Shown here one piece after another: positions 2,832 through 47,506 of a DNA stretch of 64,000 nt. Numbering within the stretch: the first letter of the stretch is position 1; every line of letters starts with the position of its first letter. The translations under genes and the position numbers were made by a program. Origin of the DNA: Bryoerythrophyllum caledonicum (lineage: Eukaryota > Streptophyta > Bryopsida > Pottiales > Pottiaceae); NCBI GenBank assembly GCA_963971425.1, contig OZ020522.1:5926168-5990167 (forward strand), in the 5' to 3' direction. A model generated the notes under the pieces. The model ran no database searches. It saw only the letters and a program-made list of their open reading frames with translations, and was not told the DNA's origin.

Positions 2832-3610
2832 AGGGTGATTGCAAAAAACACCTATCGATTTTGTTGCGTTTTCAATAGTACTCAGTATTTTTTGGGAGTA
2901 TTGTAAATTTGAAAACTAATTTTAAAATTTAAAAAAAAAAATGACTACTGTATACACTTTTAAGATGAAGATACCCAAGGAAGGAAATGCATAGAAAAAT
3001 GCTCTAAGTAGAAAAACTAGAAAAGTGCCAAACCTCAAGAAAATACATATTTTGATGTTTAAATTAATTAAAATTAAAAAAAAACAAATAAATAAATTAA
3101 TTAAAAATTATCCATTTGTAACAACTCTATGGAGATGATCATCTACCTGAAAAAACATCAAAACAACATTATATATGTTTCAAGAAATTTGCAAAAAGAA
3201 GCCCTGTTTGTAGTGTTCGACATGACATAAAATTAAATATTTTCAAATTTTCTCTCCTGGAAAGTTAGAAGTCTACTTGAAGACCATCTCCTCCAAATTT
3301 CAGCTCAAAATTTGTTTTTTTGGATTCTAAATAGTACTAAAACTTCCAAATTGGTAAGTGTGACATATAATTGGGGGCTATTATGAAATAGTTAAATATT
3401 TTTTTTAATTATGAAAAAATTATGCAAGGTGAAAAATAGTCATGAGTAACTTCTCTTTAAATCTTGAGTCCTTTAGAGCCAAATTATAAAAGTTATGACA
3501 AAAATTACAAATCTGAACACAAGGTGTGACGCAAAATAGAACAAGTGTTTCTTGCAATCGCCCTACACCACACCAAATTAGAACAAGAATTTTCATCATA
3601 GTACATACTT
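2832..3610. other. AT-rich intergenic sequence, no gene seen
   Basis: Low-complexity A/T-rich DNA with many homopolymer runs. No coding or structured feature could be supported. Confidence 0.6.
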
Positions 3611-4831
3611 GCAGTCATAGGAGCCTTTACACTTATCAACAACGTAAATTCGGAACTGTTGAAGAAGGAAGTAGAGTACCTTTGGACGGACGCAAGACAA
3701 GAGGCCTTCGAGCTTCTAAAGACAAGGTTAGTCACGGCACCAATACTCGTTGCCCCGGATTGGACAAAGGAGTTCCATGTTATGGTAGACGCCTCCGAAT
3801 GGTGTTTGGGAGCAATACTGTGGCAGCATGATGACGAGAGCGGGGAGCGACCTATCTATTACGCCAGCCGACAGATGAACCCGGCGGAAAGGAACTATAC
3901 CACTACGGAAAGGGAGGCTCTTGCAGTGATCTACGCGTGCAAGAAATTCCGACACTATCTAATCGGGTATAAGGTAACCTTCTACACGGATCATGATTCC
4001 TTGAAGTACCTTGTCAACAAGCCCGATCTGTCCGGAAGATTGGCTCACTGGATCCTGTTACTACAAGAGTTCAATTACGAGGTAAAGTTCAAACCGGGGA
4101 AATCTAATGTTAACGCGGACTACCTTTCTCGACAACGCGGAATCCCGAGCGAAAGTGCAATTCAGATGGAGTTTCCGGATGAGTTCCCGGACAACGAACC
4201 GGATCGGTATCCTCTGGTTCCGGGAATTGACCTTTCAACAAAGGAAAGCACTGTCTTCCATACGGAGGGGAAGGAAATCCGGGAGTTCCAGGATATTAGG
4301 CACTACCTCCAATCGGGGAAGTATCCGGACCATCTCAGCAGGGAGGAGAAGCGTGTCTTCCAGCACAAGGTCGCCCCATACTCGGTGATACGAGATGTGC
4401 TGTTCCGGATGGGTGCGAACGAGAAGCTCAGACAGTGCCTTGAGCCAAAACATAGATGGAAGGTGATCCGGAGCCTACACGATGGTCCTGCGGGTGGACA
4501 TTTCGCTGCTGGCACTACTGTCAAAAGGATACGAGCAGCAGGGTACTGGTGGCCCACCATGAACCGAGATGTAGGGACCTTCATCCGGAGCTGTGACCCT
4601 TGCCAACGGACCGGAAATCCCACATTCCGAAATCACTGGCCATTGACTCCGATCATACCCATTGCACCATTCGAAAAATGGGGCGTGGATTTCATAGGGC
4701 CAATTCAGCCGCTAGGTAGTCAAAGGAACCGGTACATCATTTTGGCAACGGATTACGCCACGAAATGGGTAGAGGCGAGGGCGACATCATCTACATGGAA
4801 GAAACAACTCATGAAAACCTACATCAATTAG
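3611..4831 (+). mobile_element. Truncated Ty3/gypsy LTR retrotransposon pol (RNase H + integrase N-terminus)
   Basis: One open frame (about 400 codons) covers the end of the reverse-transcriptase connection, the gypsy RNase H and the start of integrase. Visible motifs are APILVAPDW then a VDASEW aspartate, YYASRQMNPAERNYTTTERE, FYTDHDSLKYLV, and LSR at the tether. Then comes the integrase zinc site (HDGPAGGH followed by CDPCQ) and the first catalytic Asp in WGVDFIGP. Homology stops after the ATKWVEARAT segment, and a TAG ends the frame at 4829-4831. The second Asp and the Glu of integrase are therefore missing, as are gag, protease, most of RT and both LTRs. The GC content is clearly higher than in the flanks. 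It is a dead 5'- and 3'-truncated fragment. Confidence 0.92.
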
Positions 4832-23286: not shown

Positions 23287-24230
23287 TCTTGATACCTGCA
23301 CAAAAACACACACGTTCTGATAGAGGATACAAATGACAAATTGCTTTGCCTTCTGTTGCGTGGAGGCAACTGAAATGTGGCAAAACAAATGCCAGATGTA
23401 TAACACTTCCTCTCGAATTGCAACGCAAAGCTTTCTCAAGCAAAGACAATGCAACTCAAGAGAGGAAGCAATGTACAAATGAAATGAAATGGAGTTTATA
23501 CCCCCCGGATTACCATCGCTAATGCGTCGGTAATTAAAGTCAAATCGCCGTCTTAAATGAAAATCTGGATTCACAATGCACGACACGAGGAAGCCTGAAC
23601 CCTGGAAGCTGAACCGCAGCTTTGGCAATCCAACAACTCTAAACCGCAAGACCTAAACCACCTAGCCAATTTTGAGACTCACGTTACTTGAAAGATGAAA
23701 GTCGCAACAAGTATAAATTGCATGCTCACCTTATGCCTGTAAATACGCTCTCATGAAAGTCAAAGCCGTGCATGAAGGTCGATCCACGAAAGCGTTAGCC
23801 TTACACACAGAACCACATCCAGAAGAAAACGTCACCAAGCTTGTTCTAGGACGCCCCCACCGACCCATTTCAAAACGCCGTAAGCCTCGTCCAAAGCACC
23901 CTAATCTCCTTGTATCGATGCGCATCTGGATCCAAAACGCACAATACAAGGAAGCCTAAACCCTGATAGTTGAATCCAAACACACAAAAGTCAAAACCAC
24001 AAAGGAAGATTGATTCAACAAAGCGTAAGCCTTACACACAGAACACGCATCCACAAGAAAATGTCACCAGGGCTGTTCTAGTACATCCTCATCGAACCAT
24101 TCAAAACCCTAAACACCTCGTCTACAACAAAATGATCTCCTTCAACGATGCACACAACGGTTGGATTCAGGTAAGCACTTTGAACTGTGTTTTTTCCAAG
24201 CCATGTTGAACCCTAAATCCAAAATCTTTC
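23287..24230 (-). promoter_or_regulatory. 5' leader/promoter region of the RING gene with tandem duplication of about 235 bp
   Basis: The sequence about 23750-23960 is repeated in diverged form at about 23985-24175 (shared: GCGTTAGCCTTACACACAGAAC, then CATCC-AGAAGAAAACGTCACC). A third partial copy lies at 23565-23620 (ACGAGGAAGCCTGAACCCTG). Several AAACCCTAA-like motifs occur here, as is common near plant promoters. Confidence 0.55.
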
Positions 24231-28209: not shown

Positions 28210-28758
28210 TCAGTTGAGGAGATCGTAATCGTCCAGGCGGTCGTTATACTGCAACACCTTCCGCTTGATTTTCGACGAATCGACCCAGGTCACGAAATCC
28301 TCCATGTTCCGAGTGACTAAAAACGCAGGCTCAGTGATGGTGTCGGGGCCGACGCGAATATGGCCTTGCTCCACGAACGTCACGGCTTCCCGCATGTTCT
28401 CCGCCATGTTCAGCCGGAGCATGACGACTGCGAGGCGCCGACGGCACAGAGTCGACACCGATAGCTTGTTGCAGAGGGCCAAACTCTTCTTGGACGGAAT
28501 CACGCCCATGCTATACAGTTTCTCCAGAAGCGCCTCCGTCATCTCCATGCGAGTCGGGTCCTGCGGGTGCATCTTCTTCAGCATGGTCACCAACTTGGTC
28601 ACCATGCCACAAATCTTGTTGTAGTCCTGGTAGTCCTCGCGCCCCGTGATGTGGTAGCGCCGCATCACGCGCAGCTCATGCTCCCCGCGCTCCTTCTTCC
28701 ATTCCAAAAAATTCACCTTCTTCAGCAGCTTCTGCTCATGATACTTGAGCTTCCTCAT
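28210..28758 (-). CDS. IMP3: U3 small nucleolar ribonucleoprotein protein IMP3
   Basis: 182-residue single-exon ORF starting MRKLKYHEQKLLKKVNFLEW at 28758. An in-frame ATG five codons upstream is less like the family start. It aligns with eukaryotic IMP3 throughout: HELRVMRRYHITGREDY, LLEKLYSMGVIPSKKSL, then the S4 RNA-binding region FCRRRL-type (here LCRRRLAVVMLRLNMAE), FVEQGHIRVGPDTITEPAFL and the near-invariant end FVTWVDSSKIKRKVLQYN. IMP3 binds U3 snoRNA and Mpp10/IMP4 in the nucleolar small-subunit processome and helps U3 pair with pre-rRNA. The length is normal for the family and no lesion is visible, so this is probably a functional housekeeping gene. Its 5' region runs right towards the Tc1 element. 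Confidence 0.95.
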   Translation of the reverse strand: MRKLKYHEQKLLKKVNFLEWKKERGEHELRVMRRYHITGREDYQDYNKICGMVTKLVTMLKKMHPQDPTRMEMTEALLEKLYSMGVIPSKKSLALCNKLSVSTLCRRRLAVVMLRLNMAENMREAVTFVEQGHIRVGPDTITEPAFLVTRNMEDFVTWVDSSKIKRKVLQYNDRLDDYDLLN

Positions 28759-29715
28759 CGTGGAAACCGTCAAGAATCTGATGCAGCGACAAAAAGACCT
28801 AGATCAAAGTTCGAGGTCCGACGAACTTGGGAGAGGTCCACACGAAGCAACCTACCCCATCGCAAAACTTAAAATAATCCAAAAACCTGCATCAAGACAG
28901 CAACACGCACATCTGTGAAAATTGGTTCAGGGTTAAGCCTCACTACCAGTTCCCAGTTTGCTCACGCCCTTGTGTAAAGCCACTCAAACACACTAATAGG
29001 ATATATTTCAATGGTGACCAAATTTGTTGAGCAAATCCTCGTGATAAACAAGCAAACACGAAAGATAGGATATACTTTCCAAACGCTCTCTGAGAAAATC
29101 CACAAACTGTGAAGATTATCTTGAACCCAGAATATGCCTCCCTATTGCAGAGCAGCTGCTTACTGTGGGTGGCATGTTTGGAGAATATACCTAACCCTAA
29201 AATAATGAGTGGCACTTAGCACTGGTGCGTTCTCAAGTGATTTTCTGGGTACCCTGGGAGCCTGTGTTTAAGAGTCGCCCTCAAATACAACACAGACGCG
29301 AAAGCACCGCTTCGTTAAGCCAAGAACACGCCACTTTGTTCAGCCAAATCCACACACACACGAGAATTTGCAAAAAACAAACAGAGATTTATCAAAAATA
29401 AACAAGATTCACTGTTCTGCCAATCCCGAAAACGAAACAGGTATCCACGGCGAGTCCCTGCCAACCCTGGCTTCGACCTCCAGTGCGACACACAAGTTCG
29501 CAAAATCATCAAAGAACGCAAACTGCGACCATACCTACTCCGCCAAGAAAGAAAATTCAATCCTGAGCACAGCACTCAATCGAAAGAAAGACGAAAATCG
29601 CCAGAAGTTCGCAAGCACACACCACTGCATGATGAACAAAAGAGTCTCAGCGACAAGGAAATTTCAACAATTCCAATCCAGAGCCCTTGTAACCAAGTCT
29701 CCTGATCCTTGCACG

Positions 29716-29760: not shown

Positions 29761-29770
29761 GAGTCACATA

Positions 29771-31437
29771 CAGTGGTCAGCAGAAGTGTTCGGACAGGAC
29801 GCTTCCACTTCCAATATGAGCCAGTTTTCTTACGTAACTCACATTCAAGTTGTAAAAATTTAAACATACAATCACATAGTTACAAAAAACATGTAACATA
29901 ACATTCATAATAAAAAATGTCAATCAAGAAATCAATCAAAAATAAAACACATGATGTGGGTGTCCAATTCTTTATGCAAAAAGTGAAGTGGTTATCTATT
30001 TACATTGGAAACAAAGCCATGAGCTACAAAATCAAGCTAAAAACTTGAATGTAGAATCATGAGGACTACCTAAAAACTTGAATGTACAATCATAATGACT
30101 ACCATCGTGTATAGCCACCTTTTGCTTGATAAACATCTGCAGCTCTCTCGGGCACAGACATGATCAATTTCCTCACGGTATCAATCTCAATGCTATACCA
30201 AATTTCTTGCAATTTCTCCCACAAATCCTTCTTGTTAGTGGGTTTCTTCTTTGACATTCTCATACGACGATCTACTTCATTCCAAAGGTGTTCTATAGGA
30301 TTCAAGTCAGGAGATTGAGCCGGATGCCAAATTAGTTGAAACTTCTGTGCTAACAACCAATCTGTAACATACTTAGAAGTATGTTTGGGATCGTTGTCGT
30401 GCTGAAAAATAACATTCTCCTCTCCTAAATCATACATGTGTATAGTATTCATGAGCTCCATCTCCAAAATTTCACGATACACAAACTTATCTATGTTTCC
30501 TTCTATAAGACGAAGGTTGCCAATTCCCTCCCAAGTCATACATCCCCAAACCATAATGTTTCCACCTCCAAATTTGATAGTAGGTTGCACATGCTGATCT
30601 AAAAGATGCTCTCCTCTCTTCCTCCAACAATACTGCCTCCCATCTGAGCCAAACAAATTGAATTTTGACTCATCTGAAAAAACCACATAACTCCAGTCCA
30701 TCCAACTTGCATGCCTACACTTCTTTGCCCATGCATATCGACGTGCTTTGTGTTTCTTTGACAAGAATGGCTTCTTAGTTTTCACTCGTGCTCTCAATCC
30801 TTGCCTCTGAAGACATCTTCTAATTGTATCATCACTCAAATCCAATCCTTGAGATCGCATTTCTCTACCCACTGCTGCAGCTGTACCATTAGATGGTGCA
30901 TTCAACAACCTTACAACCTCACGATCACCACGTTCATCAAGAATTCGAGGTCTCCCTTGTGAAGGAGCATCTCTCAAATGACCTCTCATTGTAAACCTCC
31001 GCACAATAGCATGGCAAGTGCTTCGAGAGATGCCTAGAACCGCTGAAATTTCGGAGTACGAATTCCCTCTCTCATGCATCTGAAGAACTAACTTACGTTC
31101 AGCAAGAGTCCTTCTAGGAGCCATAGCTAATCAAGAGCAATCTTATTCAATCACAATGTGTCTTGAAATGCAAGAGGTCTCCATAAATACATGTCGATTC
31201 TCAAGATTTTTCAGATGCACAACTTGTGTGCATAATGAATTGGACACCCATGATTGACACATCATGAACTGCAGCCCATGCAAGTGGCTCAATGTGAATG
31301 ATGGTACTCTTTCTAGTTTACAAGTGGCTCTTTAGTTATAATTAGCTGAAAAAATCAGCACCTACCTACCAAACTCGACAAGTGTTACTATTAAATTGAG
31401 ATTGTAATTACTGTCCGAACACTTCTGCTGACCACTG
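29771..31437 (-). mobile_element. Intact Tc1-like DNA transposon (1,667 bp)
   Basis: Perfect 27-base terminal inverted repeats (29771-29797 and 31411-31437, beginning CAGTGGTCAGCAGAAG) are flanked by TA at 29769-29770 and 31438-31439, the Tc1/mariner target duplication. A second inverted pair (GGGTGTCCAATTC, then TTATGCA-type bases) lies about 185 bases inside each end, an arrangement like the IR/DR organisation of some Tc1 elements. The single ORF (30099-31124) is open. Perfect TIRs and an intact ORF suggest recent movement. Confidence 0.96.
30099..31124 (-). CDS. Tc1-like transposase, DD34E, intact (341 aa)
   Basis: Starts MAPRRTLAERKLVL. The N-terminal paired-like helix-turn-helix domains are visible (GNSYSEISAVLGISRSTCHAIVRR; then a GRP motif in SQGRPRIL, and a second HTH near DDTIRRCLQRQGL). 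A basic linker precedes the catalytic domain. The catalytic triad is complete: Asp in VVFSDESKFNLF, Asp in IFQHDNDPKHTS, and Glu in SPDLNPIEHLWNEVDRRM. There are 34 residues between the last two, the Tc1 spacing. The length is normal for Tc1 transposases. It would bind the element's TIRs and cut and paste the element into TA sites in the nucleus. Codon use is unlike the GC-rich neighbours but fits the AT-rich window. Confidence 0.96.
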   Translation of the reverse strand: MAPRRTLAERKLVLQMHERGNSYSEISAVLGISRSTCHAIVRRFTMRGHLRDAPSQGRPRILDERGDREVVRLLNAPSNGTAAAVGREMRSQGLDLSDDTIRRCLQRQGLRARVKTKKPFLSKKHKARRYAWAKKCRHASWMDWSYVVFSDESKFNLFGSDGRQYCWRKRGEHLLDQHVQPTIKFGGGNIMVWGCMTWEGIGNLRLIEGNIDKFVYREILEMELMNTIHMYDLGEENVIFQHDNDPKHTSKYVTDWLLAQKFQLIWHPAQSPDLNPIEHLWNEVDRRMRMSKKKPTNKKDLWEKLQEIWYSIEIDTVRKLIMSVPERAADVYQAKGGYTRW

Positions 31438-33184
31438 TACATCATCTCTTGAACTTGCCATTAAGTCTCTAAGGGAACGTTCAACCAACTTTTGGCGTTC
31501 CAAATAATTGAGTAAAGCAGCATGGACCATTGGTTCTTCAATAACGTACTCATACGTACCCTCATCGATTACTCTCGCGATACGTCCAAGGCTACACTCA
31601 AGGAGAGTCATATCATTCTTCGATGAAATAGAAAATACTGGTCTCCGGAAGAAAGCAATGAATGTTCCCATTCTACGCAACAAACCAGACGCATTGAACC
31701 ATAGTCCACCCATCTCAAATTGGCCTTTTGAGGTAGTAAACACTGTGTGGACTTGATGATAAAGTGAGATCCTGTTGAACTTCTCTGTAAAATTTGTGAG
31801 CCGATTGTAGAAATTGTCCACTTCGATCTTTGACCATTTTCCGTTGGCTGCTTCCATGAGGTGCTCCACACAACTCACCAAACACCTTCTTCGGCCTCTA
31901 AACTTGTCCAGCAGATACTGTGCATTGTCTGCCGCTTTCCCAGGCTCAAGCTGCAAGTAAGATTCACAGAATTTCTGAACTTCATGCACATCTGCCCAGG
32001 GAGAGAACCGAGCTAAGGTATATGGAATTGCCGCAGCATTTTTCCCTCCAAGCTTTGCAATCTTTGAAATTAAAGCTGGCCTAATCTGTAAGAACCTCAA
32101 ACCTGTGCCAGAAACCAATACTTTATGTCGATCAAAGCCTGGAGCTGGTAGCAGTAGGGCTTCAATGAACGGAGAAAAATGGCCCTCTTCTCCCTTGACA
32201 ATGGAGATTCAAAAGATTCCGGAAGATAGTCGGCCAATACCTGTGCTTCATCCAAAGCTATAGTGAGAGTGCCCTTCACAAGATCTCCAATCTTTATCCA
32301 CTGGCTACGTAGCTCTTTCTGTAGCACCTCCAAACGAAGTCCACGTAGCTCTTCCTGTAGCACCTCCAACTGAAGTCCAATCACAAGGGAATGGGTAAGA
32401 CTCCAATATGGATCATCTTGTTGGAGTACTTCTGGAAGGAAAACACCAAATTCTGTTTGGAGTATGAGCCACTCCAAGGAAGTCAAGTCGGTAAATTCTT
32501 CGAGAAAACACTCCAAGATTAGTAATCTTGAAAGAATGAGACAATGCATATATTGCACTGCCAGCCCATACAGGTCCTTGACATGTCTCTTTCCTGCGAC
32601 CAGGACCATCAAATTGGCAATATCACGTGACCCACCATTTCCATCGGTTGTCGCTGTCAAATAAAAACCCCACTTCCCTGGCCTTGCAAGAACCTCGTAA
32701 AGAAAGCGAGTTTTGCCACACCCACTCACTCTGACAACTGGCACAACACCAGGCGAAGGGTCGTTCACTTTATCCCAAAGATCTACCGAGTCTTGAGTCC
32801 AACAGTCACTCAGTTTATGGAGTAAAATGGCTGGAGAACCAACGTGGTTCAGTGGCACGCCGTTCGATGTGTGCAACCTGCGCTGCTTGCTACGGAATCC
32901 CTCAAAAAGCCCAGAAACCCATTTCAACCTCCATTCACCAAACCTCTCTCTCACCCATCCTGCAAGCAAAATCCACACATGCTATGTCACTCCTTTGTAC
33001 ACTCTTGCAGATCCATCTAACCCGTCCAACAAACGCATGATAGAACATCACATTGTACAAAAGATAGACCAAGAAATTGTCAAATCCTATGACAAAAACA
33101 AAATGCAAAGAATAGGGGAACATAGAAGAGAAGGCTCTGTACCTTCTTCACGGATTTTCAACCTCTTTGCAGCACTCTCTCCAT
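31438..33184 (-). pseudogene. Crinkler-like P-loop ATPase pseudogene (paralogue of the 38994-44196 gene)
   Basis: A minus-strand copy of the Crinkler-like gene. It has a 42-base micro-exon at 33143-33184 (GESAAKRLKIREE) with intact GCAG and GTACAG borders. The large exon starts at 32959 (WVRERFGEW...), with a P-loop SGCGKTRFLYEVL and Walker B LTIALDEAQVL. A one-base frame change near 32110-32118 splits the exon just before SGTGLRFLQ. Similarity to the paralogue ends at the TA where the Tc1 element is inserted (31438). The C-terminal nuclease region is absent, and no first or coiled-coil exon was found to the right. A short internal duplication (LEVLQEELR / LEVLQKELR) is specific to this copy. 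The copy is dead; in the fusion with the transposon the frame runs 6 codons into the TIR and stops. Confidence 0.88.
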
Positions 33185-34368
33185 CTGCAAATATCTCCAA
33201 TTTAGTCAAAGAATGAATAAACTGATTTAACAAACTCAATCAACGATATAGCTACTGGGAGTTTAGCAGAATCTGCAGGACGAGGACGAAAATCAGAACC
33301 TTTCAAATCCTACAAAGAAACTACGATTATTCAATTACTGCACAAGAGGTGACAAACTCAATCAAACTCGCAAAAGCACACAAGAGGATCACACAGAACG
33401 TCACAAAATTCAATCAAACAACAAAGGAAACAGAAAAGTAGCCAAGACACTATTGATACTGCTAAAAGACCCTAAATCAAACACCACCCTGAACCCTAAG
33501 GTTTACAAACTCCGCAGCAAACTCCTTGAGCGAACGCCTGTCCACTGCAAATCATCCCTCCGAATCCAGCTTTCAAGAGGACTAAGAATCTGCTTTCAAA
33601 CCCTAAAACGATTACCAACAATCACTTGGCCCCATATACAGCCACTAAGTGATGAAGAGGATGAGAAAGAAGAGTAAGCTGGTCAGCTCATAAGCACTCC
33701 GGTAATCAATGTCCCAGCGAAAGCACAGATCTTGGACCGACATTACTGATACTTAATTATCAAGACTCCAAAAAAGTCTATAGTATCTATCAAACACGCA
33801 ACCAGAATCGCTTCAAAGTGGCAATGAAGCATCCAACAAGCCATCGCGTGAATCCCTAATGTTTTGACTGAGATAAACATAAGGCAAACGCCCCAAGTCT
33901 AATGATCACCCACCCATAACTACAGCCACAAACATGAGCGTCAACACTAAAGAAAGCCTGCATGGAAGGGTCCAAAAATCCAAAACCCTCCACGAGAACA
34001 TACCCGCTTCTCTATAAACCAACACAACTACTCAAGCACAATGGAGTCAAGCAACATTTCAAAGACTGCACAATTTCACCATACATCTGTCAGAAATAAT
34101 ACCTTCACCAACGTCAACCTCACCTGTGTCTGCATGTTTTAGTCTTTTCGCTTGGTTTTCCCGAAGATTCTCACCTACATTCGAAAAGCAGAGACTCAGA
34201 TATGGAATGAAGCATCGAACAAGCCATCACACGAAACCCTAATTGTTGGAAAACCAGTAGAAGGAAGGATATCCTTAGCATGCTTCCATTGGATCACGAT
34301 GCGGCACGAGAGAAGTGCGCGAGACAGTATCTTGATACCCTACTTCTTGACCACTTTTCAACAAAGAA

Positions 34369-34560
34369 AACACATCAACAAAGAAAACACATCAATCTGC
34401 GTAATAGAGAAGCAGTGCAACAAGCTCAGCGAAATATCCACTCACAAAAACAACGATTAAGCAAAACCCTAAACAGCAAGTATCACGATATCACTATCAC
34501 TTAATAGCTGTCTTTTCTTCCAAAGAGTTCTAGGACAACCCTAGAGACAGATCGCTTCCA
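34369..34560. repeat. Duplicated block (copy of 43193-43375)
   Basis: Begins ACACATCAACAAAGAAAACA and runs through the TAATAGCTGTCTTTTCTTCC segment to 'CCCTAGAGACA'. Nearly identical by eye to 43193-43375. Part of it is present a third time at 42065-42155. Confidence 0.9.
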
Positions 34561-36500
34561 AATGATCCGCAACAAAAGAGTAAATATTACCCAGACCACA
34601 AACCTCAGATAGGAAAACATATCCAAATGACCGTTTAAGGAATAATAATCAAGGGATTGTAGCGTGCCGCCCGCGACGACTGTGTCCATGCTTAATCCAA
34701 GCCTCCAGCATCTTAAACGCAAAGAGACTCTACTCTTAAGGATTCATATCCACCAATGTCATTGTACAAAATCTCGTGTTGCAAAGAAAGTAAGCTGCGA
34801 CGAAGACAGACACTGAAACCGTTCAACCAAGAGGCAAGAAAGTAAAAACCCTACTTCGAGCCCTTCGAAATAGCATTAAATCCCGAAAGTGCCAAAAGTG
34901 GACAAGATGAGCTCACTAAGAATATTACGATGAACTACCAGAATCTCAGGGCAAAAGTGCCAACGAAGTGACAGGCACACCAAAACATGGGGCACCAAGA
35001 TATATATACAAGTTGACCCCTAAACTCTTAACCCCTCTGGCACAAGCTTAGCCGATGTGCTGCACTCACTAACCCTAAGTATCACAGCTGTACAGAATTG
35101 CACATTTTGTTTCAAAGACACGCTAGAGACAGATCAATTCCAAAGATCAAAAACCTAAGCGCAACGATCCATACCAAAGATCAACCGCGGGTGGATTGGT
35201 TATATCAAAATTGAAGAAGATCACACGCAACGCTCACAAAACAGAACTGACGAAACCCTACAGTAGACCAAAGAGTGCAGGTGTCTTCCGCAACGAAGGT
35301 GGCTGCACTGCATAAAACCCTATGATACCCTCCTTCTTGAAGCAAGTATCACTACATCACTATCACTTGATATCTGTAATTTGATCTCGTCAGAGAGCAG
35401 AGCAAAGACCAGAGCAGAAAGCAGGCTAAGCACAGCCACGAAGAAGATTGCTGACAGGCGTTTACCCAAGAACAGCTAAGCCTAAGTCGAACCTAAAAGA
35501 GTACTCAAATTTTCTTCCTAGAAGAAGACGTCTGTTCCCCTAGGTGCACTGTTTCAACCAATACAGACATACACTATTTGATATGAAGTACCGACATATT
35601 TAATGCCAAAATTACAGAAGAAGATCACACACGACGCTTACAAGACAGACCTGACGTTTCTTCCTTTACTCACATTGATGGTTACAATCATAATTCCAAG
35701 GCATAAGATGCAACTCGGAAGGAAAGACAGTAATTAGAGGAGAGGATCAGAGCACTGCCCGTGATGCGCCAATGGAAATGAGCAACATAACATGAGATTG
35801 GGACCAAATCAAACAACACATGAAAAAACCCAAAAGACGAGAAATCGTCAAGCTTCTGGAGGGACTCCAACAACACTACTCATCCTTCTAGCCCTTCATA
35901 AACCGAACCCCAAACCGGAACTCTAAACCGAACCCTAAGGGGAAGTACTTGAACCCTAAACCCTATATCACCTATTTCAACTCCGACCACCGCAAGCCAA
36001 CCCATTACACACATTAAACATTGACCAAATTACTGATCGAGCTGGACTCAAGTTCCTTGACAATCCTAGAGACAGATTGACTTTCAAATGATCCGCAACA
36101 GGACTACTGCTTAGCATATCTAGTCTGCTCCTTATCACACCTGAACGATAAGCAGTGTCTTTTACGAAGCACAGAAACTCCCGCAGTGATTTAGATTTAG
36201 ACTACATACTATGCTTCAGGCTACAATCATCGGCACGAGAGGAACACTGAAACTGGAATCCAGAAGAACGGAAATGCGCGAGTACCCTAAACCCTAATCC
36301 TAAGCTGCTTATTCTACCAATGAAGGCAAGAAGCCCAAACATGAAAAACCGAAGTACAACAATCTTTACTACCGATCACCCGCCCCCAAGATACAGCCAC
36401 GAACATCAGTGTCGACACAGTTAACCCTTGACAGGGAAGACGCCATTCAAAAAACTGTGGAGCAACATCACGACAGATAACTCTAAAACTGAAGTATCCA

Positions 36501-37150
36501 CTAATTGAGAAACGAGGCTTCAAAACGAAGCTCCGAAATATACTCCCAACATTACAGCTCAAAATTACAAAAAATTGGCAACTCACAGCTCAACTCCGCT
36601 TAAATTGCCCAAGGAAAGCACACAAACTCGAGATACAAAACCCTACATATCAAGGACTCAACAAATCCCAGTATCACATTATCGATGAAGAAACAGAAAA
36701 CGTTGGCTTCATACAAACAGAAAAAACGTCATCTCATAATCAAACATTATCTGAAGAAACTTCTGCCATGAATACTAGTACGTAAAGGGAAACCAAGAAA
36801 CACAAGAACCCGAGAGCTTGAAGGAACCCAGCGAAAAAACCCACACCAGACCAAGAAGAACCCTAAACCGTTTGCTTCCAAGAAGAAGTCTGCTCACCTA
36901 GGTGCACTATTTCAGCCCTAACTATGACGAAGACAAAGACAAAACCTAAACCCTTGCAAGTCAGCCTCAAACATGTCATGACAGTCGAATACAAGCTACA
37001 AGGATATCAGACACGAATCCCTAATTGTTCGACTGAGATAAACATAAGGCAAACGCCCCAATTCTAACGATCACCCACCCACAACTACAGCCACGAACAT
37101 AAGCGTCAACACTAAAGAAAGCCTGCAGGGAAGGGTCCAAAAATCCAAAA
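36501..37150. repeat. Duplicated block of about 650 bp (copy of 42540-43193)
   Basis: Both copies start CTAATTGAGAAACGAGGCTT and stay nearly identical by eye to GGGTCCAAAAATCCAAAAC. Only scattered substitutions and a 3-base indel in the AAGAAG run were noticed. Confidence 0.92.
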
Positions 37151-38198
37151 CCCTCCACGTGAACAAGGCCCGCTCCTCTATCAGTCGTGCATGCAATGAA
37201 GCATCGAACAAGCCATCACACGAAAACCTAATTGTTCAAAACCCTAACATAAGGCAAACGACGCTATGCCAACATGTTGCAAACAATATAGAAAATGATC
37301 TATCTTGCGCAAGCATAGCCCACGTAATTACAAAAGGTGATCACACACAACGGTCACAAAATTCAACCGTGACAAATAAAGATAATCACGATAAAAAAAA
37401 CATAAGAAGAGCAGGAGCTGGGAAGAATGGATGCTTCAAGGCTGAGACAACCATAGAGTCTGGAAAATCCTTACCAGCAACTGCAAGAAAATACTTACTT
37501 CAGCAGATACAGAACATACTCAGTTCTAAATGCCCTAGGTACTTAGATCTAAATCTTATTCCAAGGTTTAAAAATAATCAACCGAATCGATGAACAATCG
37601 CATGACGTACACCTAGGTTTCAAAGAGTTTGCCGCAGTCTTTGACTTACAATTTGCGCCATACTTACTTCTAAATCTTATTCCTAGTCATTGCAAGGCTC
37701 TCCCACTTTCAAACCAAGATTGTGCTTCCACGAGGATGGACAAAGAGAGGAGAAACAATAGTTTGCTCTAGTTTTCAACCATTGTTACATGTGTCAAATT
37801 GTATTGTGCTCCAAACTGCTAGAAAACGTTCAATTTTCAACTTGGTAGGTGGACATGTTTAGGATATACACAATTGTGTTTGTTTGAGAAAAAAATATTT
37901 AATTCAAAGAACACAATCATTCAAACAAGCATCTGCTCAGTTCCAATGATTCACACAATACAACTTCCACAAGATTCATGCCAGTTTCACAATTTAGGCC
38001 ATCATACCTACTAACACAATAACCCAATACAACAAGGAATAGAAATAAGAGCATGCCCAATTCTTGTGCCGAAAATGTACAATCATTTGTGGCGGCTTAG
38101 CTGCTTTCAACAAGATAACAAAGTTCAAGATCATTGCTCCAAAATATGCAACAAATTTCTATAACCCAATGTTGTTTCATTGGATTATAGAATGCATT

Positions 38199-38435
38199 CT
38201 AAAACAGGTGACACATGCTTGCAGCTACTTGGAAACCTAACAGATCATCAAATTGCTTGAATTCTTCTCTAAAGGTACGCCAATCCATGAGCGTCGGTAT
38301 AATTGGGGACGAGGACCACGCCACAGAGATGACGAGAGGGCCGCAAGCATATGCACAGGAGCCCAAAGGTTGGGTGCCATCATGGTGCTTCCAATCCCAA
38401 TGCCGTGCCCAAGTCCGGAACTCTGGATGTAGCAT
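38199..38435 (-). other. Coding-like fragment of unknown identity
   Basis: A 78-codon open frame with protein-like composition (WARHWDWKHHDGTQPLGSC, LVISVAWSSSPIIPTLMDWR, EEFKQFDDLLGF). It lacks a clear partner exon. I do not recognise it. It may be an exon fragment or a chance frame. Confidence 0.25.
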
Positions 38436-38993
38436 TTGAACAGAGCTTCAACGATGAGAAAGATAACAACTGGTTTCTGGCTACATACTTGTCAAATTTC
38501 TAAGGGAACCAATATATGAAAATTCAGTATTCACATTACTGCAACGGATTCTTTGTCCATAGCAGAGTTAGTACACAAACCTAAGTTGCATTCGAGATTA
38601 CAAGACGTATCACCAAAGGTTCTAGACAAAGATTGACAGCTCTAAGGTGCAGTAAAAAGCTAACAAAACATTCAATGAAGAAATACAGATGTAGTAGATA
38701 AAGGTTCTAACTAAGTCAATCCCTGGAAGTCCTGAGTTTGGGTTAATCCCACATTAGCTCTACTAACTGATTCCCAGAAGAGAAAACTATGCTCGTATCA
38801 TTTCCTTTCAGATGGTTAAAGCAAACACTTTCAGGACCTTAGGTCTAAAGCGCAAATACACGACAAGCACATGAAACACTTTGAAAAGAGAGGATTCGTT
38901 ATCTCGGAAATACCTCGCTCCCGGGAAAGAAAAGATAATCACTGTGATTGGTGGGAGTATCTGTGATTGGAGGTCGAAAGGTGTGACAGCAAA

Positions 38994-41900
38994 TCATGAA
39001 CTTTGTTTCTCTATTCCTTTCAAGCTACTTAAGAAATCACACAACTTACGGCCAAACAAATCCTTCGCTTCCGTCTGTCCTACATAGCCAAGTAAACGCT
39101 TATTCTGCGTTTCAGACTCGCGTTTAGTTGGCTTCTTTGCAGGATAGCATACTACCAAGCTGATGTAACCATCTTTGCATCCGTCAAGCACACTCTCTCT
39201 GACCTTGTCATAATTCGAGCCCTTGTACATGTGTTCCGGATTCGTAGTTGCCTCTGCCCTACCCCAACTGCTCACCCGAGGTCGCAGCTTCAGTTGACAG
39301 AAGACAGGAATCTTCAAATCCCCAAGTCTCACAACAAATAGAACATCAGGTCCGGATCTGTCGTCAAAAATGAGACATTGCTGACGATCTTCCTCTTCGG
39401 CATCAAGAAATGCACTTACAGTGTTGTTGTCGTTACCGTATGACTCCCTCCACGCTCCCTCCTTTTTACCGGTAATCACTGGCATGTCAATTGCGAAACT
39501 CTGAGGCAGGGTTGCCAAGTCTGCACCCTTGAAACAGCACATATCGGCCAAGAGTTTTTTGCCGTCAAACAACTTGGCCACATGAATCGTGAAAAGCTTC
39601 TCCCATAGCCTACCCACCGCACTTTTATCACTTTTGCAAGCAAACATTTGCTCTTCCAATAGAGCCTCTAGTGTAGTGGTGCCCTGCAAATAGTTCAAGA
39701 TGCTCCAATGGACTGTCGGTTCACGTATAGAGAAAGTGTAGTTGGAGTCTGATGACTGCATTAGCTGTCCAAGGCCAGCCTCGAGCACTGTCGCATCTTC
39801 CTTCGTTGAAACGATATATTCTCCCTCCGCCTCAAAGGCTAAGAAGAGTCCTAGTCTTCGAACCAAGGCATCAGCATTATAAGTTTGTCCATTCAGGCGA
39901 AAATAACCTTTTGATTCACATAGAGTCTTCACAGCATGGAAAATCAAAGTCCTATCGTTGCTGTTGCTGCTGCTGCTGCTTGTGATCTCCTTGAAATACT
40001 TGTCTACTAGCTTTTTTGACCATTCTCCTTTATTCCTATCAAGAAGCCGCTCGATACAAGTTACCAAACACCTTCGACGGCCTCTGAACTTCCTCAGCAG
40101 ATAATAGGCATACTCCTCCTCCTTCCCATCCTCTAGCTTCAGGTAGGCCTTTAAGAATTTCAGAACCTGATTCACATCTTTCCATGAAGAAAATGGAGCA
40201 GAAACAAATGGAACCGCCCCTCCGGCAGTGTCTTTTCCAATCGCCGATCTAATGTCCGTTTGCAGCTTCAAAAAGCTGACACCTGTACCGGCAACAAATA
40301 CTGGCACAATTTGCATATACCTAGATGGCTTCTGTAGGGCTTTCACCAACGGCGAAAAAATGGACCTTCGCTTTCTCGACTCAGGGGACTCATAACAATC
40401 TACACCTGTAGAACTCAATTCCTGCGCTTCATCCAGAACTAGAATGAAATCGCACTCAAGCTTAAGCTTTAATGCCTTCCACAGGTCATAAATCATACGA
40501 TTTACCCCATTTACCCCATCTGAATCTTCCAGGACAGCAAGCATAAGTTCAACAGCAAACTGCTGATATACATCATCACGTGTACCAGTGAAAACACGGA
40601 ATTGCACCTGGAGCATGAGCCATTGCAGAGGCTCCAAACCAGGGATTTCCTCGAGAAAAATTTCCAAGATTAACAATCTTGCAAGAATGGCACACCTCAT
40701 CCTATCCATCACATTGCTATGATTCTCTGCCTTATCGTCACCTTTTTGGTGATCAGTGACAAGGTCGATATCCTGTGACCCACCGTTTCCATTGGTACTA
40801 GCTGTCCAAAAAAAACCCCACTTCTTTGCAAGCAGCTCGTATAGAAAGCGAGTTTTCCCACTCCCACTCACTCCGATAACTGGCACAATACCAATCGAGG
40901 CATCATCCGCTCGTGCCCACAACTTAGGAACGTCAGCAGAAGTCCAACTTGCAGTTAATTGATGATATAAAATGCTTGGACGACCACTGTGGTCCAATGG
41001 CACACCGTTCTCTTTACCGTTCGCTGTAGACAATTTGCACCCGCTCTCTTTGGAATTCACCAAAAACTTAGAATATTTCGATTTCCATTCTTCCTTAACC
41101 TTAGCCACCAATTCTGTAAGCAAAACCCACACACTTTCAGTATCTGAAGAAAAATAAGAGCATCCTATCTTGCAAATATTTGAACAATAAAAAAGATAAA
41201 CCAACAAAGCCAATAACGAAAGAAAATGCCAAGAAAAGGGGAACATGGAAGGGAAGGCTAAGTAACAGAGAAGCTCTACCTGAAAATCCGGTCCCAGAGG
41301 GTTTCGATCTCTTGGGTGGTCTCTCTCCCCCTGCAAATATGTCAGATTTCAGATTACAAACGTAACTCTCACTTTCTCACAAACTGGAAGTACTTGAACC
41401 ATCAAACCGATCCGACCATTACCCCATTTTGAGCATCCCCGTTTAGACATTGTGGTGCGCGTTACCTTCCTGGAGTAGCGGGAACAGAAAACTCAGCTAT
41501 CAAAGACAGACTAAACAGAACCCTAAACCACGCCCAAAGACAACCGCGATTTATAGAGTATTTGTACGAACAGCTGCGACCATTTTTCTCATAGGATCTG
41601 GCCTTTTAATTATTGTTGAGGCACGTGGATCTACTTGACGCATTCGCAACACAATCAGGAAACAATACGACAAATGAAGACCCAGAAACCAGAAACCAGA
41701 AACCAGAAACACCTCAAAAGAGCGTCCCCATCATCGGACTTGCGGATGTAAAAACCTGCTTATTCTACCTATAAAGAAAAGAAGCCGTGACTTCAAAAAC
41801 CTAAGCGCAACGATCCATACCAAAGATCAACCGCCCCCAAGCACAGCCACGAACATGATTACTGACAGGCACACAGATGATGTAAAATTTCTCAAGCTTA

Positions 41901-44196
41901 GAAAATAACCCCTGGAGAAGATTTCCCAGACCTGGAGGGGGAACATTTTCTGCAAACCAGAAACACCAGAAACCAGGAACAAAAACCAGAAACCAGAAAC
42001 ACCTCCAGTAAGAACGCTAAACTCAAATCACTCTGAAAAAAAATCCAATACAATGCCACAAGGTAAATATCCACTCACAAAAACAACGATTAAGCAAAAC
42101 CCTAAACAGCAAGTATCACGATATCACTATCACTTAATAGCTGTCTTTTCTTCCACGGTCAACTACCAGAATATCAAGGCAAAAGTTCCACGATCCGGTG
42201 ACAAACAGACCTCAAGTAGTTGAACCTCACTATCAGCAAACTCAGGCAACAGCAAACTCAACCTACAACCACAAGTTGGTATCCAGAGTTGTTGAGCTGT
42301 GCATGTATCATACACAAACCTAAACAGACGAAGACCAGACGAAGACCTCACTACCCGTGAAACATCGCCTGGTGGAGCTGCTGAACCTGGTCATGGGAAT
42401 GCAGTTCTGGGGCAAATCATAGCATCAGGCAGAAGACCTGCTTATTCTATCTACGAAGGCAAGAAGCCCAAACTTCAAAAACCAACCAATGCCCTCTCCA
42501 CCCTATCGTAAACCCTCCACGAGAACAAGACCCGCTCCTCTAATTGAGAAACGAGGCTTCAAAACGAAGCTCCGAAATATACTCCCAACATTACAGCTCA
42601 AAATTACAAAATATTGGCAACTCACAGCTCAACTCCGCTTAACTTGCCCAAGGAAAGCACACAAACTCGAGATACAAAACCCTACATATCAAGGACTCAA
42701 CAAATCCCAGTATCACGTTATCGATGAAGAAACAGAAAACGTTGGCTTCATACAAACAGAAAAAACGTCATCTCATAATCAAACATTATCTGAAGAAACT
42801 TCTGCCATGAATACTAGTACGTAAAGGGAAACCAAGAAACACAAGAACCCGAGAGCTTGAAAAAACCCAGCGAAAAAACCCACACCAGACCAAGAAGAAC
42901 CCTAAACCGTTTGCTTCCAAGAAGAAGAAGTCTGCTCACCTAGGTGCACTGTTTCAACCCTAACTATGACAAAGACAAAGACAAAACCTAAACCCTTGTA
43001 AGTCACCCTCAAACATGTCATGACAGTCGAATACAAGCTACTAGGATATCAGGCACGAGTCCCTAATTGTTCGACTGAGATATACATAAGGCAAACGCCC
43101 CAATTCTAACGATCACCCACCCATAACTACAGCCACGAACATGAGCGTCAACACTAAAGAAAGCCTGCAGGGAAGGGTCCAAAAATCCAAAACACATCAA
43201 CAAAGAAAACACATCAATCTGCGTAATAGAGAAGCAGTGCAACAAGCTCAGCGAAATATCCACTCACAAAAACAACGATTAAGCAAAACCCTAGACAGCA
43301 AGAATCACGATATCACTATCACTTAATAGCTGTCTTTTCTTCCAAAGAGTTCTAGGACAACCCTAGAGACAAACTTTTTATACAAATCACGCACAAAGAT
43401 TGACTCGTGTCATGTCATAATCACTCCGGTCAGGGGACTACATATTTGGCACGATTTCAAGCCCTACAAATACAAACATTACAGACTACCATCAGTACGA
43501 CAAACACTACAGACTACCATCAGTACGACAAACACATTCAATGAGCCCTAAAGCATAACCACAACATCGCTCCATCACCGTTCTCTGTCGACGGTCAACT
43601 AAGATGATCGGTAAGAGGACTAACCTCGACCGTCCTGGATTTCGTCCAGACGTTGAAGTTCCTTGATCCGAAAAAGTTCCCGAAGAAGTTCCGGAAGAGA
43701 TTCTTGAAGCCGACCTTTCTCGGCTCGAAGCTCACCTTGCAAGGTCCATTGTCTGTCTTTATCTTTCTCAAGTCTCGCGTTCTCTTGCGGGTCGGAGCAA
43801 ATCTTAATCTGCTGATCTAAACCTCTGATCGTCACTTGTACATCTTTGATGTTCTGTTCGATACGTAGAATGGCCTGGTCGATACCCTTAATCCTCGAAT
43901 TCAGTTCTTCCACGCCTCCAATCTGCAATGGTCAGAACAGGTTTGAATTGATCGCGCTCGAGACATCCACAGAACTCTTTCACATAGAGCAACATCAATC
44001 GATTCAAGAAATGCTCGGGAGATATCTAGATAGATTTGTGAGCGAACAAGACAATGAGTGGGGCAAGAAAGCAGATAGAACATACTGAAATTTCAGACAG
44101 TTTCGGTTTCTTGGACTCTTCGACAGTAGGCACCTCCGGCTTCACTACCTTCTCTTTCCGTTTCCCTTCCCGTTTCGCTCCCGTTCCCTTCGCCAT
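38994..44196 (-). CDS. Crinkler-like protein: coiled coil + P-loop ATPase + PD-(D/E)XK-like nuclease tail (859 aa, four exons)
   Basis: Exons on the minus strand: 44196-44086 (start, 37 codons, Lys-rich, possible nuclear localisation), 43922-43625 (coiled coil, about 99 codons), 41330-41280 (51-base micro-exon with PPKRSKP) and 41113-38994. All borders are GT-AG, all phases agree, and the sum is exactly 860 codons including stop. The P-loop GVSGSGKTR is near residues 234-242 and Walker B FILVLDEAQEL near 376-386. Late in the protein, GPDVLF (Asp about 743) followed by VFCQLKLR (Gln about 760, Lys about 762) fits a PD-(D/E)XK core with Gln for Glu. This ATPase-plus-nuclease plan is that of Crinkler/CR-type proteins of fungi, oomycetes and some plants. 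It is presumably nuclear; its true role (defence, effector-like or selfish) is not shown. An acceptor-like TTTTTGCAG at about 44213 suggests a 5'-UTR intron. Confidence 0.85.
42540..43375. repeat. Repeat mosaic inside intron 3 of the Crinkler-like gene
   Basis: 42540-43193 duplicates 36501-37150 and 43193-43375 duplicates 34369-34550. The two source blocks lie in the opposite relative order behind the pseudogene, so this intron was assembled by rearrangement and not by simple copying. Confidence 0.88.
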
Positions 44197-44331
44197 ATTT
44201 GCAAGCAATGAGTCTGCAAAAAGTAAGAAATATGTCCCCAGTCAAACACACAGATCTTTGTGAAACCCTAGAAACGAAATATCAACAAGAGCAGAAACTA
44301 CAGTCATTCAAGGAAAACTACTTACTGAGAG

Positions 44332-44450
44332 ACAAGGTGCGAACGAGCGAAGGGAGTAAGGCTGCGGGCACCGCTCGGGAAGCAGCGGATAGACAAGGTG
44401 CGAACGAGCGCAGGGGAGTAAGGCTGCGGGGACCGCTCGGAAAGCGGCGC
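44332..44450. repeat. Tandem duplication of about 60 bp upstream of the Crinkler-like gene
   Basis: GACAAGGTGCGAACGAGCG occurs at about 44333 and 44393, each followed by a GGGAGTAAGGCTGCGGG segment. GC-rich; lies in the probable promoter or 5' UTR. Confidence 0.85.
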
Positions 44451-44519
44451 GAGATGCACAGAAGCGAGAGAGCGGGCGCTTTCATAAGCTCCCCCCTTCC
44501 CCAAACCCTACTCAGCAAT

Positions 44520-44720
44520 CTAGGTCCCAAGCGAGGTCTTGACAAAGATTTGTATGCCTCCTTAGAGACGAAAGGCAAGATAGAGCGTCGACTCTTTCTC
44601 AATGTTACAGTCGACAAGAATATGCTCATCTTTGAGTTGCTTCCCTGCAAAAAACAACCTTTGCCGGTTTTGGGGGATGCCCTCCTTGTCCTCAATCTTG
44701 GTCTTGACATTAGTGATGGT
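44520..44720 (-). pseudogene. Polyubiquitin pseudogene fragment
   Basis: On the minus strand from 44720 the frame reads [36 protein letters not shown], then [12 protein letters not shown] and, across a TAA stop in place of Arg, GGIQIFVKTSLGT. This is ubiquitin from about residue 22 through the C-terminal LRxGG and into the first residues (MQIFVKT) of a following unit, so the source was a polyubiquitin gene. Substitutions and two stops make it non-functional. It has the same orientation as the Crinkler-like gene whose ATG lies 320 bases downstream, and may be part of its leader or promoter. Confidence 0.88.
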
Positions 44721-44811
44721 TTTAATTCAGGTCGTCGAATTGGATGACCACCATGCGAATTCCAAGAACCATGCGCTTCTTTTGGTTTCATAACTATTCA
44801 AGCTACTTGCT

Positions 44812-45746
44812 TTAACCCCTAAGGGACCACGACCAATTTCGCTCACAAACTAGTCCAAATCTGCCATTGTCAAGGAGAGGCATGAAAATCACATTTTCAG
44901 GTCGAATTTCATAGTTTCAACCGTAAGATCTTAAACAACACTTCTACAAAAACATGCTGTATTTTTTTGGTTGCAATCTATTGCACGGATTGATAGATTA
45001 TAGTGTATGAAGTCAAAAAAATGGTTATTTGCCTTCTCTACATTGAGTGGATCAATAGACTTTGACTTCACTTTGTATCAAATTTTTGAACTACACAAGG
45101 TCTAAATCTTTTGCCATTGTATCAAGCATAATGTTAGTTCCCTACACACCAATTTTTAGAAGTAGAAAAGAGTTGTAGCATGTTCAAAACAAGTGCGCAG
45201 AGAGTAGAGGTTCCATAATTGCCATTTCACATTTTATTTTTTGGTGAACTTGATATGTTTTGGAATCATGATCCAAACGGTCAATAAGAAGGTTTTCATC
45301 ACATATTGTTGTTGAAAAAACAAAAAGTGAAAAATATGAAGATCTCTAGGTTTTATGTAGAAAAGATGAAGTTTCTTTCCCCCCTTGCCCGACAATGTGT
45401 GAAAATGTTTGACTTGGGATAAAATGATTTTTTACACTAAAGACAAGAATCTTTTTTTGACATTTCCAAAGACGGTAATATTATTTATATGTATGAAAAA
45501 TCTCGATGTCAATAGAAACTTCTAGCAAAAGTTTTGGAGCTGCCCGAAGTCGCCTTTTTTACTTTGAGTGGTACTAACTTTCACATCACAAATCCAAAAA
45601 AATAAATAAAAACACCTCCACAAAGCTCTTAACAGAGGCAATCTAATATAGAATTTTCAATAAAGAGGGATTTTTTGTCAAATAATAGGTACATGCCCGA
45701 AATCCAAATTGTCTCCCATGGGGACAATTGGTCCCTTAGGGGTTAA
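44812..45746. mobile_element. TTAACCCCTAAGGGACCA inverted-repeat element, copy 1 (935 bp)
   Basis: Perfect 18-base inverted termini (44812-44829 and 45729-45746), including the outermost TTAA. There is no ORF. The target site could be TTAA (piggyBac-like, TIR starting CCCC) or TA (mariner-like, TIR starting ACCCC); the palindrome makes this ambiguous. The interior is AT-rich and closely related to the copy at 46577-47506. Confidence 0.8.
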
Positions 45747-46056
45747 TACAATTATAAAAGATTTAGACCTCACGCAGTGCAAAATATTGATGCCAAATCA
45801 AGTCAAAGTCTGCTGATCCACTCGATACAGAGTAGAAAATGAACATTTTTTTAAAATTCAAACACTATAATCTTTCAATTCGTGCGATGGATTGCAGCCT
45901 AAAAAATATGGTAGACTTACACAAATGTTTAGTTTGAGATTCTAAGGTTAAATGTCCAAAATTTTACTTCAAAATTAAATGTTCTTGCCACTTTTTGGTA
46001 GTGGCAGGCTTGGAGTGAGTTTTTGACAAAAAATGGCTTGGGCTTTTAGGGGTTAA
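45747..46056. repeat. Truncated inverted partial copy of the same element
   Basis: Ends CTTTTAGGGGTTAA at 46056. In reverse orientation it contains AAGTCAAAGTCTGCTGATCC, the complement of 46805-46835 in copy 2. It abuts copy 1, so the two can pair as a hairpin. Confidence 0.7.
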
Positions 46057-46576
46057 TAATCAATTGATCGATAATTCTCCAAATTCAATATTCATTTCTA
46101 CTTCTTCATAACATTCTCCAAGTTGCCAACAAACTACAGCTTTTAAAGTAATTGGTTCTCTTGGCTCACCATCATGCCAATGCTCTAGCTCAGTACAAAT
46201 TAGCCATTGGTAATCTTCTGCACGCAAGACAGCTCCAATTGGTCTATCACTATAAGTTCTAAAAAAAATATAAATTTCTTCACATAATTTCCGCTTGGTT
46301 TTCTCACTAGCAATCCTCACTACTTTATCCGAGTAGTTTAATGTGCCATATTTCAATTTTAACAAACTATCCACTAGTTCAATATCATTTAATTTCTTTC
46401 TTGGCATCACCACTAATTAGTATACCTCCCAGTTATCAAATCAATTCCATTCACTCAGTATTACAACAACATCTTTTGGTGTATTCTCCAATTGATCAAG
46501 GTCTACCGGCTAACAGTCAATCCTCTGCCATCAAATCTCATATGTATCAATTCTCAAACTCCAATTGAGTACTGTA

Positions 46577-47506
46577 TTAACCCCTAAAGTTTCTTCTCAA
46601 TTTCACATCAAACACACTTCAAAACTGATTATCTTAGTGCAACAAGTGAGGAAGGAAACCAAAACTTTTATCTCCATTTTTAACCGTGGGATTTTCATCA
46701 AGACTTACTAGTAACCTCTTCACAAATTTTCATTGACTTTGACCGTACAGATTCAAAGATTATTATAATGTTTGAAGTAGCTAAAACGGCTCATTTTTCT
46801 CCCTGCATTGAGTGGATCAGCAGACTTTGACTTCACTTGGTGTCAAATTTTTGCACTACCCGAGGTCTAAATTCATTACCATTATGTTCAACATGATGTT
46901 AGTTCCTCATACACCAATTTTTAAAGGTATAGAGGAGGTGTAGCATATTCAAAAAAATTGTGCAAGGAATGGAGGTTCAAAATGGCCACTTCACGTTGTC
47001 TTTTTTTGTAAAGTAAATAAATTTTAGAATGTTAATCCAAACGGTCAATAAGAAGGTTTACATCACATCTTGTAGTAGAAAAAGAAAAAAGTGAAAAATA
47101 TGATGATCTGTAAGTTTTATGTGGAAAAGAAGAAGTTTTTTTGTTTGTTGCCCGAAAATGGGTGGAAATGTTTGACTTAGATTAAAATGATTTTTTACAC
47201 TAAAGACAAGTTTTTTTTTAGATCTTCAAAGAAGGTACTATTCTTTACATGTATGAAAAATCTCAATGCCAATAGAGACTTCTAGCAAAATTTTGGAGCT
47301 GCCTGGCGTCCCCACTTTTTACTTTGAGTGGTACTAACTTTCAAACTATGAATTGATCAAAAAAACAATAAAAATACCTCCACATAGCTCTTATCAGGAA
47401 CAATTTTGTATAGAAATTTCAAAAAGAAAGGATTTTTTTCAAATTTTAGGAACCTACCCAAAATTGAAAACGTCCGCCGAAGGGGATTTGGTCCTTTAGG
47501 GGTTAA
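46577..47506. mobile_element. TTAACCCCTAAAG inverted-repeat element, copy 2 (930 bp)
   Basis: Left end TTAACCCCTAAAG at 46577 and right end CTTTAGGGGTTAA at 47506. The interior runs parallel to copy 1 (shared: GATCCAAACGGTCAATAAGA, ATGTTAGTTCC, ACTTTGAGTGGTACTAACTT). No ORF. Confidence 0.78.

Follow-up and report, generated by a model that had tools for sequence, protein, structure and literature searches.

A probable Crinkler-RHS-type ATPase-nuclease gene with a fast-diverging copy and differing heads in the moss Bryoerythrophyllum caledonicum

In the 437-Mb genome assembly of the moss Bryoerythrophyllum caledonicum, we analysed a stretch of 64,000 nucleotides (hereafter the window; C10:5926168-5990167, C10 being contig OZ020522.1), which carries on its minus strand an intact gene for a protein with a P-loop ATPase and a nuclease-like end. 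The initial annotation had assembled the gene from four exons, and the borders located by script agree with it: the exons sum to 2580 nt, that is 860 codons including the stop and 859 residues, and all three coding introns have GT...AG borders with matching phases. The parts of the gene are listed below; adding 154 to an exon-4 residue number gives the number in the full protein.

44214..44325, minus strand: likely intron of the 5' untranslated region (GTAAGT...TTTGCAG), preceding the ATG, as read from the sequence
44086..44196, minus strand: exon 1, 111 nt, 37 codons, strongly basic (KREGKRKEK, KKPK)
43923..44085, minus strand: intron 1, 163 nt, phase 0
43625..43922, minus strand: exon 2, 298 nt, predicted coiled-coil head, with heptads
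41331..43624, minus strand: intron 2, 2294 nt, phase 1
41280..41330, minus strand: exon 3, 51 nt, basic peptide of about 17 residues, GERPPKRSKPSGTGFS, like a nuclear localization signal (NLS) by inspection
41114..41279, minus strand: intron 3, 166 nt, phase 1
38994..41113, minus strand: exon 4, 2120 nt with the TGA (38994-38996), the body, made up of a STAND-like ATPase and a PD-(D/E)XK-like end
40851..40874, minus strand: Walker A, GVSGSGKT, exon-4 residues 80-87, from the alignment with fungal relatives
40428..40433, minus strand: Walker B acidic pair, D227 E228 (in VLDEAQ)
40071..40082, minus strand: GRRR motif, GRHR in three fungal-type rows of the alignment
38997..39671, minus strand: PD-(D/E)XK-like domain, exon-4 residues 481-705, folded alone
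39600..39602, minus strand: E504, helix Glu of the nuclease motif, from the alignment
39345..39347, minus strand: D589, motif Asp (in GPD), from the alignment
39288..39296, minus strand: Q606-L-K608, (D/E/Q)xK motif, from the alignment

Exon 4 is a single open frame matched over its whole length by the Ceratodon purpureus protein KC19_8G083900 with 63% identity, and for this reason the gene model is better than chance. The exon-3 peptide is also present in KC19_8G083900 (residues 73-90, E 2.9e-4), where it agrees at 14 of 18 aligned positions, or at 13 of 17 without the first position, which falls in the intron here. Moreover, a copy on another contig, C398, has 85% DNA identity to window positions 41384-38973, which comprise exon 3 with its acceptor, intron 3 and exon 4. 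Exons 1 and 2 gave no alignment at the C398 copy; apart from the stretch just named, the alignment comprises no more than 63 bases of intron 2. The heptad score of exon 2 was reached by none of 2000 shuffles; a genome search with this exon found no second copy among the matches listed, Pfam gave no family above the cut-off, and the head is present in none of the aligned homologs. The splicing of exons 1 and 2 is therefore a prediction from splice signals, the open frame and the heptad pattern of exon 2, and within it the basic and coiled-coil head proposed initially is retained. About 370 bases upstream of the ATG lies a fragment (44565-44723, minus strand, running on to about 44523) that we take to be polyubiquitin-like, with a stop where the RLRGG end of the unit would continue and with the start of a second unit; it may be due to chance or be a remnant of a captured 5' region.

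The P-loop ATPase that had been claimed is borne out by the alignment and by fold matches. The GxGKT core of Walker A is invariant in all eight rows including the fungal relatives, its first Gly being variable, and so is the Walker B acidic pair (8/8); the Pfam match of this part, AAA_22 (E 6.6e-4), lies below the family cut-off. A P-loop NTPase is thus present in the C-terminal part of the protein, as expected of a CR (Crinkler-RHS) protein. STAND NTPases carry hhGRExE and GxP motifs, the latter usually at a place comparable to that of GRRR here. By eye, GRPSIL, conserved across several of the plant rows, and GRRR/GRHR are found at places similar to those of hhGRExE and GxP, and the exact STAND motifs were not seen. 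The modelled ATPase resembles the STAND switches NRC4 and CED-4. From such switches (NRC4, RPP1, CED-4, Apaf-1) and from the antiviral Avs proteins the window protein differs in its nuclease-like C-terminus and in having no repeat domain reported by Pfam.

The residues E504, D589 and Q606-L-K608 are invariant in all eight rows of the homolog alignment, two of which stop at that point; they include the Gln in place of Glu noticed in the initial annotation. The Mycena relative P0008, the only one long enough, aligns in the same order but without QxK. The initial annotation had placed a nuclease-like end at about residues 690-859; the domain folded alone is PD-(D/E)XK-like, and in the model the nuclease-like part starts somewhat earlier, near residue 650 of the protein; structural matches not counted as nucleases were 7 RNA-polymerase, 7 carboxylase and 6 other chains. 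The MspJI-type modification-dependent endonucleases are among the closest known systems, but the structural Z to them is low, and no modified-base-binding domain was reported in the window protein. By sequence, no solved structure, NCBIfam family or PADLOC model matched the protein, and the one hit from PADLOC, weak and to mad8 (E 0.06), concerned a relative in Ceratodon.

Relatives were sought in protein searches that each scored about 8000 candidates, from which distant relatives may escape. The exon-4 search returned eight proteins at E <= 1e-3 and the profile searches nine each at E <= 0.01; those with names come from Ceratodon purpureus (three proteins), Selaginella (one) and, weakly, Mycena, and the source names in these searches never say CR or Crinkler, although the Mycena relatives were found and aligned. 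The Ceratodon proteins KC19_8G083900, KC19_8G085700 and KC19_1G108200 have the same body, with 63%, 63% and 42% identity. One scan each of viral contigs and of genome contigs with one or two short peptide patterns gave 27 and 12 pattern matches, none confirmed as a close bacterial, archaeal or viral relative. When the genome was searched with the body of the window gene and also with a clade-B Ceratodon protein (see below), the best candidates being scored, the listed matches were two full-length bodies, the window gene and C398:19512-21620, together with a broken sibling in the window and a fragmentary locus, C10:3727190-3727925, which consists of two pieces in different frames with nothing past query residue 263. 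An in-frame TGA in the C398 body was considered as a lesion and rejected, as it falls after 698 of 703 matched codons and is merely an earlier end. In a tree of 15 rows, from which the C10 fragment was left out, clade A (window gene, C398, P0004, P0003 and two Ceratodon proteins) and clade B (the sibling pieces, P0007, P0009 and one Ceratodon protein) are both well supported, and Selaginella and the fungi fall outside them. Since each clade has a Ceratodon member, the split between A and B is older than the divergence from Ceratodon. Inside clade A the tree gives no clear branching order among the window gene, the Ceratodon pair, C398 and P0004; C398 is about equally similar to P0004 (74% over 403 residues) and to the window gene (72% over 711).

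The intact body and its closest genomic copy differ mostly by protein-changing mutations, as is the case for conflict proteins. The ratio omega of nonsynonymous to synonymous rates between the window gene and the C398 body was 1.33 by NG86 and 1.69 by YN00 (688 codons), and 1.71 in a maximum-likelihood pairwise codon model (684 codons; likelihood-ratio test statistic, LRT, 9.08, p 0.0026), values that come mainly from one pair, whose C398 member lies on an unplaced 25-kb contig and possibly belongs to another individual or haplotype. Dropping the codons near gaps left omega at 1.74 (638 codons), and none of 300 null simulations at omega 1 reached the observed LRT. For three segments with borders of our own choice, omega was 1.84 (p 0.014), 1.21 (p 0.54) and 2.72 (p 0.033). 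As a control, an S4-domain ribosomal-type gene (28213-28803, minus strand), which has a 94% paralog on C7, gave omega 0.015 against that paralog (192 codons). The changes by codon position were 106, 88 and 74 in the intact pair and 7, 8 and 61 in the control gene, and given the latter pattern an artefact was rejected as the cause of the few third-position changes. Furthermore, all six internal gaps in the DNA alignment of the pair keep the frame (the protein alignment has seven), and the motif residues are identical in both copies. A clade-B pair, the N piece of the sibling and the C10 fragment, gave omega 2.2 (155 codons, LRT 4.4). Intron 3 differs at only 7 of 166 sites versus 274 of 2058 in exon 4 (Fisher p 2.3e-4), and conversion at the intron end of the pair is possible.

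The same kind of exon-3/exon-4 core appears to be preceded by three different heads, namely the coiled coil of the window gene, a tandemly repeated exon at C398 and, in Ceratodon, a head that looks helical. At C398 the body is preceded by three tandem units with a period of 553 bp which are 98.9% alike (C398, L006 2427-4086); each has the same open stretch and the same GTATGT donor, and the stretch begins with Met in two units and with Leu in the middle one. From ATG to donor this exon measures 289 nt, or 96 codons and one base, which gives phase 1, in agreement with the acceptor of exon 3, and we infer that it is joined by splicing to the C398 body. To the eye its product is beta-rich and could be ubiquitin-like; the three open frames of the units matched no Pfam family, and BLASTP found no kinship with the Selaginella head. 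KC19_8G083900 has a third type of head, which by eye is helical and looks weakly like a SAM domain. Different heads fit the variable headers described for CR proteins (PMC5289972).

The second locus of the family in the window lies downstream of the intact gene, next to a mobile element.

31440..33184, minus strand: broken sibling of clade B, from homology matches
33184-33143, minus strand: exon-3-like piece of the sibling
32981-32100 and 32208-31411, minus strand: ATPase pieces of the sibling in two frames
29769..31439, minus strand: Tc1/mariner-type element with inverted ends (29/29) and an open transposase frame of 343 codons, from Pfam and the comparison of its ends

The sibling had been described as dead, which its frameshift and truncation support: its likeness to relatives stops at 31438-31441, where the mariner-type element starts, and no match to the nuclease end was found. 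That it is a recent duplicate was rejected, the bodies being about 40% identical and the two moss clades each having a Ceratodon member; it is an old paralog in clade B. The sibling has Arg at the first P-loop position, which was rejected as proof of decay by itself, since fungal-type rows also lack that Gly. The mariner-type element was possibly active recently. Shuffled repeat modules, 79-100% alike, are common to the 5' region of the sibling (33700-37200) and intron 2 of the intact gene (41750-43371); the long ones are 97-99% identical and differ in order, the longest having 97% identity over 658 bases and another 99% over 183. This may reflect a recent exchange or copying of non-coding 5' DNA between the two loci, or a repeat carried by both. 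A second exon-3-like basic stretch, ENQAKRLKHADTG, lies between splice-like signals upstream of the sibling (34226-34062, minus strand). Elsewhere in the window there are an open frame of 897 codons (20959-23652, minus strand) whose match to RING is weak (E 0.0074, under the cut-off) and a piece of a retroelement containing domains of the RNase H and integrase zinc-binding types (3602-4831, plus strand); Rfam and tRNA scans of the window gave nothing.

We consider, with a probability of about one half, that the gene is maintained in working order and encodes a moss CR NTPase-REase protein, broadly defined, which acts as a nuclear ATP-gated nuclease in conflict or defence. In such a protein the basic exons 1 and 3 would direct entry into the nucleus, the coiled-coil head would serve in self-association or sensing, and the STAND-like ATPase would be a nucleotide-gated switch for the assembly and release of the PD-(D/E)XK-like nuclease at the C-terminus (E...D...QxK), which in turn could cut the nucleic acid of an invader or, in a suicide response, that of the cell itself. 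CR NTPase-REase proteins, as described in PMC5289972 and PMC11342252, have the same order of head, P-loop NTPase and restriction-endonuclease-like end, have variable heads and occur in land plants, where they were reported in 2016 (Zhang et al. 2016, via PMC5289972). The window gene differs in its own coiled-coil head, in the absence of the LXLFLAK motif and in being split by introns, and its closest named kin are moss proteins called "hypothetical". For eudicot CR proteins a defence against intracellular invaders has been suggested (PMC5289972). The present gene is a further member of this known kind and adds to it diversifying selection, a variety of heads and a resemblance to STAND switches; among the papers listed in literature searches, none was on a moss CR protein or reported these additions for a moss.

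The chief alternative, possible but less probable, is a selfish killer: the protein would act as toxin for a drive element propagated via spores or embryos of the plant itself, in the manner of Medea1, a CR-type element of Tribolium. According to PMC11342252, CR-NTPase8 together with CR-REase7 occurs in mobile elements such as Medea1, which kills embryos, and because of this link, a likeness by description and not by sequence, the selfish reading is retained. A drive is as compatible as a defence gene with omega above 1 and with copies that are partly dead, and mobile and repeated DNA surrounds the locus. However, no antidote gene was recognised, though no systematic search for one was made, and each of the two intact bodies sits on a contig of its own in the same assembly. 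None of the papers listed in a literature search on spore killers concerned a moss killer. Defence is preferred by a modest margin, given that the assembly contains two intact bodies that diverge and that the same role has been suggested for eudicot CR proteins (PMC5289972). The interpretation in the initial annotation is partly supported, and the conflict role that it names for such proteins is favoured.

It is rather improbable that the gene is, or formerly was, a transposon-borne passenger, with an ATPase-nuclease that serves or served to move the element carrying it: the matches listed in 437 Mb, two bodies of full length and two loci that are broken or fragmentary, are not a repeat family, the gene contains introns, and a repeat scan of 30000-47000, the only look for terminal repeats, listed one inverted pair that does not flank it. 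About as little credit is due to a relaxed, decaying family in which chance alone has left the copies intact and sampling or gene conversion has raised omega above 1. Breakage or fragmentation has already reached two related loci, and conversion could cause the odd similarity of intron 3, but the null simulations, the frame-keeping gaps, the unchanged motif residues and the elevated omega of the clade-B pair all argue against decay. An effector of the oomycete kind, secreted or translocated into other cells, such as the initial annotation mentions for proteins of this type, is very unlikely, as the family resemblance to the CRN (Crinkler) effectors, which PMC6119762 mentions as effectors of pathogens, is all that speaks for it, while the LXLFLAK motif found in the N-terminal ubiquitin-like header of oomycete CRN effectors is absent from the predicted translation of exons 1 and 2, exon 1 is strongly basic and not hydrophobic, and the moss is regarded as a free-living plant.

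CR proteins have been studied mostly as effectors of pathogens, and the reason why free-living plants keep them is the question raised by this gene. Mosses have a haploid-dominant life cycle and are genetically workable, and an intact gene with a fast-diverging copy and varied heads makes defence, drive and transposon relic testable against each other. As a speculation that we regard as doubtful, mosses and Selaginella might possess a nuclease-armed STAND defence parallel to the nucleotide-binding leucine-rich repeat receptors (NLRs), in which phase-1 exon cassettes would supply interchangeable heads, for sensing or assembly, to a constant core of NLS, switch and nuclease, and in which intracellular invaders would drive diversifying selection. 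The resemblance to STAND proteins would tie the CR ATPase to the switches of plant immunity.

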